Positions 1 to 5,504 of a DNA stretch of 7,419 nucleotides are shown here, piece after piece. Position numbers and translations under genes: made by a program. Source of the stretch: Oligoflexales bacterium (GTDB lineage Bacteria; Bdellovibrionota_B; Oligoflexia; Oligoflexales; CACXFL01); assembly GCA_028282865.1 (NCBI GenBank), contig JANQHA010000552.1, forward strand, positions 1 through 7,419. Direction: 5' to 3'. Each line of letters starts with the position of its first letter. The first letter of the stretch is position 1. Under the pieces are notes generated by a model, which did no database searches, was not told the DNA's origin, and saw nothing but the letters and a program-made list of their open reading frames with translations.

Positions 1-3000
1 TAGCTCTTGACTCTGACTGTTCTACTGCACTTTCTAAGCTTTTAGAGATATACCGGTCAACCCAGAACTCTGCTGGAATGATACCTATACTTGAGTCTCA
101 GCTATATATTGCGCTTAGGTCGGCTGACCTACCTACGGTGACTAGGCTTAGGGAGGAGCTGTTTTCGTATTATGATAACGATGAAAGAAGAGCATCTTTG
201 CTGCTTGATATCCTACCGGTATTTCCTGATATTGATCTTCAAATGAAGTTAGTCCAAGGTCTTGAACTCGATAAGTCCACTTGGAGGAAGTTGATTGATT
301 CTTGGGCTGCTACAGTTATTCCTGGTGATGATAAAGCTACTTTAGCTAAAAGTTACATCGAACTTGGACGGTTGTGTCTACAATATCTAGCTGACTCAGC
401 GCAGTCTGTGGGATTCTACATGCTTGGATTACGTAGTGGCTGGATTGACCAAAGTTCATTTGACTTTGTTATTGAATATTTAGTGCGGCAGTCTGATCAA
501 GCAGCAATTAGTGAATGCTTCGCTTTGAGATTAGATCAGCTTGTTGGTAGTGATAAAGTCGATTTGCTGGACGATATTCTGCTCAATAGGTACCAGTTCT
601 TTTCTGAAAAAAGCTTAAACGAATACGCCCTATCAATATACTTATTGAAACCAGAAAAGAAGAATCATTTATATAGCCGCTTTGACTTCTACGGCTCGAA
701 AGATGACTTTAGCGAGGTTGAGAATCTTTTGGACTCTTTAGAATCTCTAGAGAAGAACGTGCTTCAACTCGATGAATGGTATGTTCTTGCTATTGAAAAT
801 ATTTCTCGAAGCTCAGACGTTGTTAAATATTCTTACCTGGCGCGAATTTACGATAAACGAATAGATCTGAATAATAATGATGAAGATGTAGTACGCGAGG
901 CTGTAAAGTGCTTTCAGCTAAGTAAGGATAGAGAACTGCAAAAAAAATACTGCTCCTTATTGGTTGATATGGACATATTACCACCGATTGATACGGAGTC
1001 GCTCCTCAGCCTATTTGCTGACTCTGGGATCTACCGCGCTAAGATTCTTCGGTGGTCCGCAGATAGGGCGGAAAATGATCATATACGCTTAAATTACTAT
1101 TACGAAGCCTACCAGGAGTTTTCAAAACTTTCAGGCCGCGGTCTTGATGCCGAGTTTTGTTTGCTACACTACTGCCAAGAGGCGGCTGCTTCAGATGATG
1201 ACCTGGGTTATTTGCGCGTGCTGATTAGCCAATCTGGTCATTGGAATTCTTACCAGTCTATTCTGGATTTTCAAATTTCGCAGCGATCGGTAGATGACCG
1301 GTTAGCATTGTATAGGGAATTTATAGAGGTCTCTTTGATCGAAGTGGGCGATGCTGTAAAGGCGGGCTCTATTGTAGATCAGGCCTTGGATGCTGGCTTT
1401 CAGTCTGAAGATCTGGTCGATGAAACGATTGAGAACGAGTTGCTAGAGCAAGGTGTAGCTCCCACAATTATTGCCGAGCAGATGTTTAAGCGTCATGTGG
1501 TTCGTAAGGATTTAGACAGAGCGGTCAAGGTATGGATGTATCTGTTATTTACCCAAAAAGATGAGACTGAGATTGGTGCGTTTATCGAGTGGAGTAAAAA
1601 TGTAATAAATCTTCCCGTTTCTGAAATATTGTGGGAGGAGTTGATTGCCAGTGTCGTGGACCTAAGGAGAATGCTTCATATGGTTGGAAGGCTTCACCTT
1701 GATTTGATGACCGAAATTGGCAATCACTTGTTTGACTTTGAGCAGTATAGTGAGCAGTCGTATAAGGCGCTTAAAGAAGTATACAAAAGCAGACCTGATG
1801 AACGGAGTATTTGGATTCCTTTATATTTACTGCTTAGAACTTATGGCTCAGAGAAGGACTTAACGAATTATATTCGCCAATTGATTCCACGGGTGGAGAA
1901 GATACCCGAAGTCATTAGGTCCTACCCCATCACTATTGAAAGTTTGCGTAGTGAACTTGCGCGTTTGGAGTCTGTCGACGGTCGGGTAAAGTCAGTAGTT
2001 GGATTTGAGCAAGAAACTGGCATAGGGGTTCCGCCAGGACCCCCCGGCAATTCCATGCAAGCTCCTCCAAAAGAAGCGTTAGACTGGCGGTCCTTGGTTA
2101 GTTCGCTTCAGGTCCCCGATAACTTCTGTCATGAGCTATTTAATCGGCCGATTTCTAGCGCAATTGAAAAGCATATTGCACTTCAAGCGTGTAGTCTCCT
2201 TAGTGGAGACTTTGAAGTGATGAAACATTGGCATTGGCAGGTTTGGAGAAATCCAAATCAGTATGGTTATAAACTGGAGGGTCGGAACCGTTACCCAGAC
2301 GATGGTGGTTTGAGCGAAATCAATTCACCTCTTCATCGACTTTTACTATATGTAGCTCCGGTGCTCATTCAAATGCATCGCGATCAGTTTAGTGCGCAAG
2401 GCCTGGCGGTTAGAATGGGGATGACTGCCAAGCAGTTTTCTAACGAAGCCAAGCCTGTCGACTGGAAAGACCCGGCTTTCTTAAAAACGGGATTAGTACA
2501 CTATCAAGAAGTATTAGAGAGGCAAAACTTTAGAATTTCCCATCTCGCCAACATGGGCTTAGAGATTTTCTACGAAGGAAGTACTAGACATATTTATTTC
2601 GATAAGACTGGTTATCAGGATTTACCTGGAAGCATTTTGTTTCACCGTATTTTCAGCCTTCTTTGGTCGGTCAAACTACGCTATTTCCCGCTACTACACC
2701 TAGACCCGCAGAAGGATGTTATTCCACTTCTTTGGGCTATACAGCAACAATTAGAAGGGACTGGGATACGAGCTGTAAAACGTTTCTTTGGTTCCAAATT
2801 AACCCCTTTAGAACAGACTCTGAGGTCGTTAGACTTGGCTGAGTTAGGTCATCGTTTTTCGCAGGTAGCTAAGATTGACGCTGCAGAGGTTGATCAGCTA
2901 TGGGACGTTATGAATCAACATATCCTACGGCTGCAACTAGCGGAGACATTAGACTTGGTGGGCCTAGCGGAAAGTCTGGCCGGTAGAAATATTGTCGATC

Positions 3001-3086
3001 AAGCGAAAATGGCTAACAACGAAATTCTGGAGAAATCAGACCGAATTGAAGACCTTATTATTTTTTCAACCAAGCTAAAGCTATAG
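1..3086 (+). CDS. Very large TPR-like helical-repeat protein with distinct C-terminal domain (5'-partial)
   Basis: The reading frame is open to the left edge (first full codon at base 3), so the ATG at 78 is probably internal: it has no convincing ribosome binding site, and the 25 codons before it look like the same repeat (ALSKLLEIYRS, then LESQL). 1027 residues are visible. Up to about base 2000 the protein is almost wholly amphipathic helix in 30-40 residue units, with TPR-like pieces such as RLALYREFIEVSLIEVGDA near 1300-1360. A Pro/Gly-rich linker (GVPPGPPGN) lies near 2025-2050. The last 330 residues or so form a less repetitive domain rich in aromatic residues and His, with HWHWQVW, HRLLLYVAPVLI and ILFHRIFSLLW. 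No HExxH, Walker or other catalytic motif was found, and no membrane segment is obvious. TPR-type solenoids are usually protein-binding scaffolds; that role is inferred here. The function of the C-terminal domain is unknown. Reality of the gene is near certain; its function is not. Confidence 0.9.
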   Translation, partial: ALDSDCSTALSKLLEIYRSTQNSAGMIPILESQLYIALRSADLPTVTRLREELFSYYDNDERRASLLLDILPVFPDIDLQMKLVQGLELDKSTWRKLIDSWAATVIPGDDKATLAKSYIELGRLCLQYLADSAQSVGFYMLGLRSGWIDQSSFDFVIEYLVRQSDQAAISECFALRLDQLVGSDKVDLLDDILLNRYQFFSEKSLNEYALSIYLLKPEKKNHLYSRFDFYGSKDDFSEVENLLDSLESLEKNVLQLDEWYVLAIENISRSSDVVKYSYLARIYDKRIDLNNNDEDVVREAVKCFQLSKDRELQKKYCSLLVDMDILPPIDTESLLSLFADSGIYRAKILRWSADRAENDHIRLNYYYEAYQEFSKLSGRGLDAEFCLLHYCQEAAASDDDLGYLRVLISQSGHWNSYQSILDFQISQRSVDDRLALYREFIEVSLIEVGDAVKAGSIVDQALDAGFQSEDLVDETIENELLEQGVAPTIIAEQMFKRHVVRKDLDRAVKVWMYLLFTQKDETEIGAFIEWSKNVINLPVSEILWEELIASVVDLRRMLHMVGRLHLDLMTEIGNHLFDFEQYSEQSYKALKEVYKSRPDERSIWIPLYLLLRTYGSEKDLTNYIRQLIPRVEKIPEVIRSYPITIESLRSELARLESVDGRVKSVVGFEQETGIGVPPGPPGNSMQAPPKEALDWRSLVSSLQVPDNFCHELFNRPISSAIEKHIALQACSLLSGDFEVMKHWHWQVWRNPNQYGYKLEGRNRYPDDGGLSEINSPLHRLLLYVAPVLIQMHRDQFSAQGLAVRMGMTAKQFSNEAKPVDWKDPAFLKTGLVHYQEVLERQNFRISHLANMGLEIFYEGSTRHIYFDKTGYQDLPGSILFHRIFSLLWSVKLRYFPLLHLDPQKDVIPLLWAIQQQLEGTGIRAVKRFFGSKLTPLEQTLRSLDLAELGHRFSQVAKIDAAEVDQLWDVMNQHILRLQLAETLDLVGLAESLAGRNIVDQAKMANNEILEKSDRIEDLIIFSTKLKL

Positions 3087-3107: not shown

Positions 3108-4544
3108 CTACCATTTTCTTATAGTAGCTTGCGGCCTGCGATTCTTCCATACGATGCTTCCCTGGCTACTGACGGTAGGTGCCGGTTCATCGCCAATTTT
3201 GTTCGAATGAGGCTGAATTTTATAGGTGTATTCTCCGTTAGGTAGTCTAAGTATTTTAGAGCGACCGTTGGTGATGACAAACTCGGTTTCGCTGGTAATA
3301 CTGTCCGATAAGTACTGTTTGTTATTTTTTGCAAACCTACTGTCGAGTTCTGGCTGGTTGCAGGAACGACCCTCTGTGGAGCTTGTAATATTCAGATAAT
3401 TAGCCACTGAAAGAGCCTGGCTCTGCACACCAAATAGTGGGTGCCAGCATTGGTGTTGCGATGGTGAAAGCTCCGCTAGCAAGTTTGACTTCACTTTTTC
3501 TGATGGGATAAGGGTAACAAGTAGGTCTTTGCTAGGAGTTTGATCTCGAGGAATTTTTATTGTAAGCAGACCTAGTTTACTGGAATGTTCATATAACTTT
3601 TTGAAGAACTCAATTTCGCTTGTAGCTTTTAGTAGTCCTATACTTGCGGCGGCAGTTCGGTTGTTGACAAGTTGATTGCTACACACTGCTTCTTGCCAAG
3701 CTGAGGTTGACAACGCTAATGGCAATTCATTAGGTTTGGAGGATCGAATCATTTTGCATAGATGATCGAGCTCGCTCTCAGTTCTGTTACTGCCTAGGGC
3801 TTCGGCTAGTTCAATGGCGACAGATACTCTGCGGGTAAGTATGTAGGGCTGTCTTGACCACCTTCTTATCATCGTTTTCCGGATTGACCTAAGGTGTTTC
3901 TCGGTGTCACCTACTTTATTAGCTTCTGGAAGGTGACAAAATAGCCCATAATCGTCAACGGTAGCTCTGCAGTCAGGTACAATTTGAGAGAGCCAAGCTG
4001 TCGTAATCTGGTTGATTTCTTTACTTAGCTCTGATGAGAGCTGCCCTTTTTCAGAGCTAGATGCTTCACAGATGCTTGCGACTGTTTGAGAAGCAATTGG
4101 AGTCGTTAAATCAATCGTAAACTTTTCACCAGCTACTTCTATCTGTGTAGCGGCTAGGCTTTCTGGTGAAAAAATTATCTTAACTTTCTCCATACCGAAT
4201 GCCGAGGTTACCGGCAAAGTCCATTGCTGTTTTTCTATGCGATCGTCTTTGTTAGGAATGCATAGATTAGTGGTGAGAGCTAATAATCTAATGGGTATGT
4301 TATTTTTAAGGGTGTATATAGCTTGCTGCTTTGGCGGAGAGCTTAGAAGGTTGAATGGATTAAATCTAGACCACGAAGATGAATCCTGAGCGATTTCTGA
4401 AGTATTGCTATCGTTTGCGGAGTTATGAAAGCGACAGCTTACGCCAACAACGATAGCTATCAAGAAGCAGAAAGTCGGGAGATTTAGGAAAGAAAGGATC
4501 CTAGTACACTTCGATTTTATGAACAGCCACATCGACCGTTTCAT
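3108..4544 (-). CDS. Probable lipoprotein of unknown function, 478 residues, eight further cysteines
   Basis: I do not recognise the family. The ATG at 4544 is chosen because AGGTGG (4555-4550) lies 5 nt upstream. A GTG at 4553 is in frame but lies inside that site; an ATG at 4532 is possible. The N-terminus is basic (MKRS, KSK, R), then hydrophobic (FCFLIAIVVGVSC), and the stretch around VGVSC fits a loose lipobox with the lipidated Cys at residue 37. That is slightly late for a signal peptide II site, so an uncleaved anchor is the alternative. A Ser/Asn/Asp-rich spacer follows to about residue 60. Eight cysteines remain after Cys37 (about 95, 159, 192, 203, 263, 288, 366 and 395), an even count that suits disulfides in the periplasm. 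The middle (about 170-260) looks helical. The end (about 420-478) looks beta-rich, with LPNGEYTYKI resembling a small surface beta-sandwich. It overlaps the upstream tail-tube-like gene by 44 bp, so the two products are probably made together. Confidence 0.85.
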   Translation of the reverse strand: MKRSMWLFIKSKCTRILSFLNLPTFCFLIAIVVGVSCRFHNSANDSNTSEIAQDSSSWSRFNPFNLLSSPPKQQAIYTLKNNIPIRLLALTTNLCIPNKDDRIEKQQWTLPVTSAFGMEKVKIIFSPESLAATQIEVAGEKFTIDLTTPIASQTVASICEASSSEKGQLSSELSKEINQITTAWLSQIVPDCRATVDDYGLFCHLPEANKVGDTEKHLRSIRKTMIRRWSRQPYILTRRVSVAIELAEALGSNRTESELDHLCKMIRSSKPNELPLALSTSAWQEAVCSNQLVNNRTAAASIGLLKATSEIEFFKKLYEHSSKLGLLTIKIPRDQTPSKDLLVTLIPSEKVKSNLLAELSPSQHQCWHPLFGVQSQALSVANYLNITSSTEGRSCNQPELDSRFAKNNKQYLSDSITSETEFVITNGRSKILRLPNGEYTYKIQPHSNKIGDEPAPTVSSQGSIVWKNRRPQATIRKW

Positions 4545-4971
4545 GGAAACCACCTAGCGCCGAATTCGCAGATTCAACGGTCCAAGAGAGAGGCTGACAC
4601 AGTTTCAGGACATATCGTGAAATCTCTTGACCTAGTTTATTTCTTTTAACTAAATGTATGTCTCTTAGTTCTTCGTTTCGCTTCGCAGTGTTTTTGGCCC
4701 ATAGATAAAGCGACGGGTCAGTAACAAAGTTGCGGTGAAGTGTGACTTTAGTGTAACGATTCCCCTCAGAATCGATTTCTCCATTAATTTTGCTCAACCC
4801 TTCGATCTTCTCGAAGCTACCATAGTTAAAATCGTCAATTTCAACGGTGACGCCGTTAGGCTCAACTACGAACCCTGCTGGCAAGTTATGAGAAGAAAGA
4901 GTGATCGCTACCACGGCGCCAATTAGTAGCGTTGCGCGTACGATTGAGCGAAAATGTCTTCTAATAAACAC
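4501..4971 (-). CDS. Tail-tube-like protein (T4 gp19-type domain) with N-terminal signal or membrane anchor
   Basis: It is 156 residues from a GTG start; an in-frame TGA 15 nt upstream rules out an earlier start. The only Shine-Dalgarno candidate, GAGG, is about 10 nt away, so translation may be modest. Residues 1-11 are basic (IRRHFRSIVR), 12-25 are hydrophobic (ATLLIGAVVAITL), and LPAGF at 30-34 could be a signal-peptidase site or the end of an anchor. Residues 38-156 follow the pattern of the phage T4 gp19 / conserved phage-tail family: VTVEIDDF then FEKIEGLS (43-60), VTLHRNFVTDPSLYLWA (76-92), RDIHLVKRNKLGQEI (103-117), the Pro-x-x-Trp step QPLSW (126-130), and closing VDVAVHKIEV (146-155). 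Members form the inner tube of contractile tails and related injection systems, but normally have no signal sequence. The match was made by eye, without a profile search. No other tail gene lies in the window. It overlaps the lipoprotein gene by 44 bp. Confidence 0.72.
   Translation of the reverse strand: MFIRRHFRSIVRATLLIGAVVAITLSSHNLPAGFVVEPNGVTVEIDDFNYGSFEKIEGLSKINGEIDSEGNRYTKVTLHRNFVTDPSLYLWAKNTAKRNEELRDIHLVKRNKLGQEISRYVLKLCQPLSWTVESANSALGGFHETVDVAVHKIEVY
4550..4555 (-). promoter_or_regulatory. Internal Shine-Dalgarno (AGGTGG) for the lipoprotein gene, inside the upstream coding sequence
   Basis: AGGTGG on the minus strand is spaced 5 nt (TTTCC) from the ATG at 4544. It is coding sequence of the upstream gene, where it falls in codons for Leu-Gly-Gly near its C-terminus. 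It decides the start of the downstream gene and argues for translational coupling or reinitiation. Confidence 0.6.
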
Positions 4972-5118: not shown

Positions 5119-5499
5119 TTAGGAAACCTTAGCTATCGCTTCTATTTCAACTCTGACATTTTTGGGTAGTTTAGCCGCTTGAACACACGCTCTAGCGGGA
5201 AAAGGCTGCTCAAAATAGCTTGCATAAATTTCGTTAACCTCAGCAAAATTGTTCATATCCTCAAGAAAAATTGTCGTTTTCACAACTTGGTTCAACGAAC
5301 AACCGCCTGCCTCTAAAACAGCCGCAAGATTTTTCATAACTTGATGGGTTTCTTCACTAATAGAGCCCTCGATTAGGGTTCCGTTAGCTGGGTTGATTGG
5401 TATTTGCCCTGAGCAAAAAAGGAGCCCATCAACCTTAATCGCTTGGGAGTAAGGGCCTACAGCTGCTGGGGCGTTCTCTGTTTCAATTGCTTGCTTCAT
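5119..5499 (-). CDS. ridA: RidA family reactive enamine/imine deaminase
   Basis: The 126-residue product has the normal length of RidA (YjgF/YER057c/UK114 family). Members form homotrimers in the cytoplasm that hydrolyse reactive enamine/imine intermediates, such as 2-aminoacrylate from serine or threonine dehydratases, to the 2-keto acid and ammonia, protecting PLP enzymes. Signature stretches are GPYSQAIK (15-22), SGQIPINP (30-37), VVKTTIFLEDMNNFAEVN (72-89), FPARACV (100-106) and VEIEAIA (117-123). By alignment from memory with the E. coli protein, the active-site residues Tyr17, Ser30, Arg103 and Glu118 are all kept, so it should be active. The start is the ATG at 5499, with AAGGTG 5 nt upstream; the same frame runs further upstream to about 5550, but that would add 17 unconserved residues. 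It lies 160 bp downstream of the aspS-linked TPR gene, so it may share that transcript or use its own promoter. Confidence 0.96.
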   Translation of the reverse strand: MKQAIETENAPAAVGPYSQAIKVDGLLFCSGQIPINPANGTLIEGSISEETHQVMKNLAAVLEAGGCSLNQVVKTTIFLEDMNNFAEVNEIYASYFEQPFPARACVQAAKLPKNVRVEIEAIAKVS

Positions 5500-5504
5500 A
5501 AGGT

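Follow-up and report, generated by a model that had tools for sequence, protein, structure and literature searches.

A tail-tube-fold protein with a predicted export signal and an adjoining predicted lipoprotein in Oligoflexales: a possible domesticated tail tube

The window described here, by which we mean the whole stretch of 7419 bases that was analysed, is one contig (JANQHA010000552.1) of the draft genome of an Oligoflexales bacterium, an assembly of 3.3 Mb that is 90% complete. Read in the direction of transcription, its minus strand holds the end of aspS, then a TPR-like gene for which every Pfam match is under the cut-off, a RidA-family gene, and the two open reading frames (ORFs) that are the subject of this report (Table 1). 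The first of these two encodes a protein that the first-pass annotation, made from the sequence alone, had described as a tail-tube-type protein with an export signal or membrane anchor. The ORF lies exactly where it had been placed and has the basic, then hydrophobic N-terminus attributed to it. The second, which encodes a predicted lipoprotein, was absent from that earlier account of the tube protein, and we refer to it below as the partner.

Table 1. Features of the locus, with positions in the window and the evidence for each
Feature	Position	Strand	Evidence
Tail-tube-fold protein, predicted to be exported, 156 amino acids, GTG start	4501..4971	minus	ORF, PF06841, fold match, one gene in 41/43 genomes
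Predicted Sec signal peptide, residues 1-32, predicted cut after Ala32	4876..4971	minus	Ala32, core, spacer
Predicted mature tube-fold domain, residues 33-156	4504..4875	minus	AlphaFold2 model, fold searches
Region with the ring-stacking 'long loop', residues 60-79	4735..4794	minus	Length comparison; PMC9022992 and PMC6088184
Best-conserved stretch, residues 80-94, R-N-F-V-T-D-P-S-L-Y-L-W-A-K-N in the window	4690..4734	minus	79 homologues
Predicted lipoprotein partner, 478 amino acids, no named family	3108..4544	minus	Directly 3' in 37/43 genomes
Partner lipobox G-V-S-C37 (predicted)	4434..4445	minus	Cys37 in 25/25, pattern in 21/25
44-base overlap, lipoprotein start codon inside the tube gene 3' end	4501..4544	minus	Profile matches
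RidA-family gene (TIGR00004), conserved upstream neighbour	5119..5502	minus	TIGR00004 match, locus comparison

The first 32 residues of the tube protein consist of a basic start, a hydrophobic core, a spacer of five residues and Ala32. Alanine occupies the aligned column 32 in all 79 homologues, and in 75 of them it is preceded by a strongly hydrophobic stretch, with a mean hydropathy of 1.79-3.19 over 13 residues; within the mature parts, the most hydrophobic stretch reaches 0.58-1.23. Columns 12-31 are variable in the same alignment, the commonest character accounting for at most 0.62. The uncharged core in those 75 homologues is mostly 14-16 residues long (range 9-25), with mostly five residues between its end and the predicted cut, and in a more divergent alignment the alanine is kept in 17 of 19 rows, equivalent to 12 of 14 genome copies. 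The family therefore has the n-h-c layout with a small residue at -1 that is looked for in substrates of Sec and signal peptidase I. A short core, a fixed spacer and an invariant alanine are commoner in cleaved signals than in anchors, and these features favour a cleavable signal, with predicted cleavage, over a membrane anchor. The first-pass annotation had named, as a finding that would count against it, homologues that consistently start near residue 33; this is not the rule, as the 75 homologues with the hydrophobic stretch demonstrate, and the layout of the export signal that it suspected is conserved.

The same scan returned 15 tail-tube proteins from spirochaetes, which start within about 10 residues of the predicted mature start and have no hydrophobic extension. 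The Oligoflexales form thus looks like a tube subunit to which a signal peptide has been added, and its conserved signal layout sets it apart from the gp19 family, in which there is no signal sequence and assembly is cytoplasmic. After the predicted cut, 124 residues would remain, compared with 142 in most of the spirochaete tubes.

In a single-sequence profile search, residues 70-137 of the window protein match PF06841 with an E-value of 2.9e-5 (24.4 bits, against a curated cut-off of 28.2), and the protein matches TIGR02241 with an E-value of 1.4e-4, likewise under the cut-off; among the PHROGs, nothing better than E 0.14 was found. The tail-tube membership proposed in the first pass is thus seen as weak matches to two families, while the single sequence stays under the curated cut-offs of both. 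At E <= 1e-3, PF06841 matches 37 of the 40 family members scanned, including that of the window, and it is found at this threshold in 19 of 56 searched genomes, 10 of them over the cut-off and all 19 at the exported gene.

The AlphaFold2 model of the tube protein (pLDDT 88.3, pTM 0.70) has helices at residues 3-28, at the N-terminus, and 88-98, and is predicted by Foldseek and VIA-align to be a tail-tube beta-barrel with an outer helix, the aligned part covering residues ~31-156. Foldseek gave 26 matches at E <= 1e-3, and the 50 matches listed are all to contractile injection systems, Hcp of the type VI secretion system (T6SS) or phage tails. Since 37 of 40 family members match PF06841 and the fold searches agree, we do not regard the family match as a chance result, and the predicted monomer fold is in line with the gp19/Hcp barrel that had been anticipated. 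The closest known systems are the T4 gp19 (PF06841) family and three tubes from contractile injection systems of the extracellular type, namely AlgoCIS 7aeb, PVC Pvc1 6j0b and AFP Afp1 6rao; all share the predicted barrel, the Foldseek E-values for the latter three being 1.1e-6 to 9.5e-6. Unlike these tubes, the Oligoflexales protein has an apparent added signal peptide, no sheath gene alongside and one gene per genome. With the spirochaete tubes it shares R80, W91, P127, W130, G140 and E144, which are invariant over both groups (85 rows). The tube protein, which is predicted to be periplasmic, has a sole cysteine, Cys125 (window 4597-4599), nearly invariant at 0.91 of the 79 homologues; it is unpaired unless bonded between chains.

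Profile searches find the tube gene, once per genome, in 41 of the 43 genomes from the order (that of the window among them) and in none of the 15 from elsewhere in the class. It is split into two pieces of one frame in two genomes, and its match in G006 is weak (6.7e-4). A PF04984 sheath occurs in three of the 43 genomes, each time on a contig other than that of the tube gene, which leaves 40 with no sheath match. The T6SS sheath PF05943 (TssC/VipB) has no match in any of the 43, the window's own draft genome included, and is found in seven of 13 other genomes of the class. These counts mark the tube gene as a stable core gene, carried mostly by genomes in which no sheath was detected. No sheath gene is present among the window proteins scanned, which agrees with the earlier observation that none adjoins the tube gene. 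The protein differs in this from Hcp, whose sheath VipB is the one missing from all 43 genomes, and it differs further in that Hcp is secreted without a signal sequence, according to PMC5924787, whereas the tube protein here appears to be exported by one.

The region that holds the loop between strands 2 and 3 sets the family apart from other tail tubes. In PMC9022992, this loop is described as making most of the contact between stacked rings in long flexible tails and as being present in contractile tails too; PMC6088184 gives it a near-constant length of 25-28 residues in contractile tubes. In the 79 homologues, the region holding the loop has a median length of 21 residues (range 13-37), compared with 32 in all six spirochaete tubes examined, and is thus about 11 residues shorter; in the divergent alignment it spans 12-81 residues. 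Its columns 60-71 are unconserved, with a commonest character of only 0.13-0.29, and the near-constant long ring-stacking loop of the gp19 family is not found in this one. Directly after it comes the best-conserved part of the protein, R80-N94, in which the commonest residue reaches 0.85-1.00 per column and which runs into the helix at 88-98. For a phage tail tube that was set beside that of diffocin, PMC6088184 describes two helices on the outer surface. The family members in G006 and G012 have long inserts in the loop region, of 60 and 81 residues (L091 4505-5239 and L102 2013-2762), and a different gene adjoins the tube gene in these genomes.

The partner gene is present in 37 of the 43 genomes and in none of the 15 others (profile search), and in all 37 it is directly 3' of the tube gene on the same contig and strand. 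The profile matches of the two genes overlap by 35-47 bases in 29 of the 37, most often by 44; in the remaining eight, the matches are 61-325 bases apart and several are partial at one end. Cys37, which ends a hydrophobic stretch, is invariant in the 25 aligned members, 21 of which carry the classic lipoprotein pattern (PS51257 type). None of the 25 has an aspartate directly after Cys37, and by the rule on lipoprotein sorting by the residue after the cysteine in E. coli, the partner would go to the outer membrane. Beyond Cys37, each member has at least eight cysteines, of which seven occupy columns invariant over the 25, fitting four predicted disulfide bonds outside the cytoplasm. The partner has no Pfam match at E <= 1e-3 in any of the 25 members, no match to PDB sequences at E <= 1 and no confident match to a solved fold. 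Across 23 loci, tube and partner distances correlate beyond what RidA accounts for (partial r 0.60; 0 of 2000 permutations), which is supportive of a link. The survey of flanking genes thus strengthens the earlier suggestion that the tube fold has been moved to the envelope, as a conserved predicted lipoprotein adjoins the gene for a protein with a signal layout. In the G011 locus, an unrelated 247-residue ORF with a lipobox-like start, ILASC, comes after the tube gene (L093 1404-2147) and is possibly a replaced lipoprotein partner.

The neighbourhood was compared in a first set of 25 loci (the window and L032-L055) and a second of 15 (L091-L105); the 24 non-window loci of the first set were located via the tube gene, and some are short. 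Clustering of the 25 loci places the tube gene and the lipoprotein gene in all 25. Next come RidA (23 loci), the TPR-like gene (18), ffh (16), a MiaB/RimO-type gene (14), a DUF1573 gene (12) and aspS (11). Only the tube-lipoprotein pair is unbroken over the set.

We propose, and hold about as probable as its opposite, that the tube-fold protein is exported and forms, with the lipoprotein, a periplasmic ring held at the outer membrane. Export by Sec is likely, given that residues 1-32 are arranged like a cleavable Sec signal. Signal peptidase I would cut after Ala32, and the 124-residue subunits would build one six-membered ring or a short stack; a long tube is not expected, since the loop responsible for ring stacking is both shortened and unconserved. 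The lipoprotein may bind the ring from outside, perhaps via the invariant stretch near the outer helix, and would hold it at the outer membrane. Such a ring would be a constitutive part of the envelope, for example a lined opening or a scaffold, and not a weapon, because its gene belongs to the core set and has aspS, ridA and ffh among its neighbours. It is thus likely that one component of a viral injection machine now serves as a fixed element of the bacterial envelope. The fuller picture of a domesticated tail tube, Sec-exported and sheathless, forming a hexameric ring or short channel held by a dedicated, co-translated lipoprotein as an undescribed two-gene envelope machine, we put forward more tentatively, at somewhat less than an even chance.

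Known systems offer partial parallels. TssJ, the outer-membrane lipoprotein of the T6SS, resembles the partner in that it, too, is a lipoprotein associated with a machine that includes a tube-type protein; the partner differs in having 478 residues, eight conserved cysteines besides the lipid-bearing one and no named family, and the T6SS lacks the apparent export of the tube protein. Rings of MCE domains, such as MlaD, are periplasmic hexameric beta-barrel rings with an outer-membrane lipoprotein partner. The pair described here would share that arrangement only, the family being unrelated, and it has no permease or ATPase in the window, with ABC transporter genes nearby in some loci only.

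A number of observations weigh against the proposed ring. The residue at position -3 is serine in 48 homologues, leucine in 26 and valine in five of the 79, and leucine at -3 is less usual for signal peptidase I; four of the 79 begin just 4-11 residues before Ala32, and two of the 19 rows of the divergent alignment, L095 and L102, have no alanine there. The alignment behind the structure model takes in six ordinary spirochaete tubes, and the profile of the exported family matches no solved tube by sequence, its best matches being unrelated (E 0.02 and above). As the window protein is also under the PF06841 cut-off, the link to tail tubes rests on the model together with weak family matches. 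The tube gene was not found in two of the 43 genomes of the order, although the genomes are drafts and absences are accordingly soft. A tube gene without a partner match occurs in four of 41 genomes: in G013 the contig ends 344 bases past the tube gene, in G006 and G012 the adjoining ORFs are other ones with no evident signal, and the fourth is G011. The correlation of distances is confounded by shared ancestry, and RidA lies directly upstream in 23 of the 25 first-set loci and in 10 of the 15 second-set loci, so conserved order alone proves no partnership. For the lipoprotein link, we give more weight to the gene overlap and the matching location signals than to order.

Other explanations of the pair can be considered. 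The exported protein may form no ring and have kept the tube fold as a small beta-barrel that binds the lipoprotein, for example as a periplasmic chaperone or co-subunit. In favour of this, the ring-stacking region is degenerate and variable in length in both alignments, and isolated tail-tube proteins are stable as monomers according to PMC9022992, but the six residues invariant over exported and spirochaete tubes suggest that more than a scaffold has been kept. They are not decisive, and we consider such an adaptor unlikely. Rather more doubtful is an uncut signal serving as an inner-membrane tether, with the tube domain in the periplasm in the manner of MCE-type rings. The N-terminal helix of the model, the few relatives without the alanine (L102 and L095) and the few cores of 19-25 residues would suit a tether, whereas the usual core length, the mostly fixed spacer and the alanine present in 79 of 79 would not.

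It is improbable that the protein crosses the outer membrane to build surface tubes or adhesive appendages. The fold is that of a tube and the lipoprotein could serve as an anchor, but the stacking region is shortened and unconserved, and no secretion-pore gene is present among the neighbour clusters that could be identified (some clusters are without identification). Still less probable is a protective decoy, a periplasmic tube subunit that poisons or caps the tail or T6SS tubes of phages and rivals. Its predicted fold is that of the incoming tubes and its likely location is the envelope; against this, 41 of the 43 genomes encode it once, next to stable neighbours, and defence genes are mostly unlike such core genes. 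Finally, an ordinary contractile-system tail tube with a miscalled start, which the gp19 family matches might suggest, can hardly be the explanation and is largely contradicted by the conserved signal layout. The hydrophobic extension is shared by 75 of the 79 homologues, 40 of the 43 genomes have no sheath match, and the lipoprotein neighbour is fixed.

Beyond the pair, downstream neighbours differ by lineage (L038 12155-16523, L103 1892-3379) and include ffh (SRP54), the MiaB/RimO-type radical SAM gene and the DUF1573 gene; a lipase maturation factor gene is downstream in G007. On the plus strand of the window, a 1027-residue ORF (3-3086), open at the window edge, runs toward the tube and lipoprotein genes; it has no Pfam match at E <= 0.01, and its 1002-residue form has no NCBIfam match at E <= 1. 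The Spirochaetales loci (L056-L070) carry a gp19 tube without an export signal. In L056, the one that was checked, the tube gene comes after a sheath gene, and the cluster also holds another sheath gene together with genes for baseplate J-like and Tail_P2_I proteins; several more of these loci have similar ORF lengths.

Our literature search, which covered few subscription papers, brought up no account of tail-tube proteins that carry an export signal, be they described as signal-bearing, periplasmic or domesticated. The tube fold itself is already known; the location, the partner and the conservation pattern were not found described. To our knowledge, all tail-tube proteins described so far are synthesised in the cytoplasm and moved by the machine to which they belong. 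The Oligoflexales, an order with predatory bacteria among its relatives, have received little study, and the gene pair is suited to direct expression and testing. A tube-fold protein that is apparently exported by an ordinary pathway and encoded by a core gene would demonstrate that a tail tube can take on a housekeeping role as part of the envelope.
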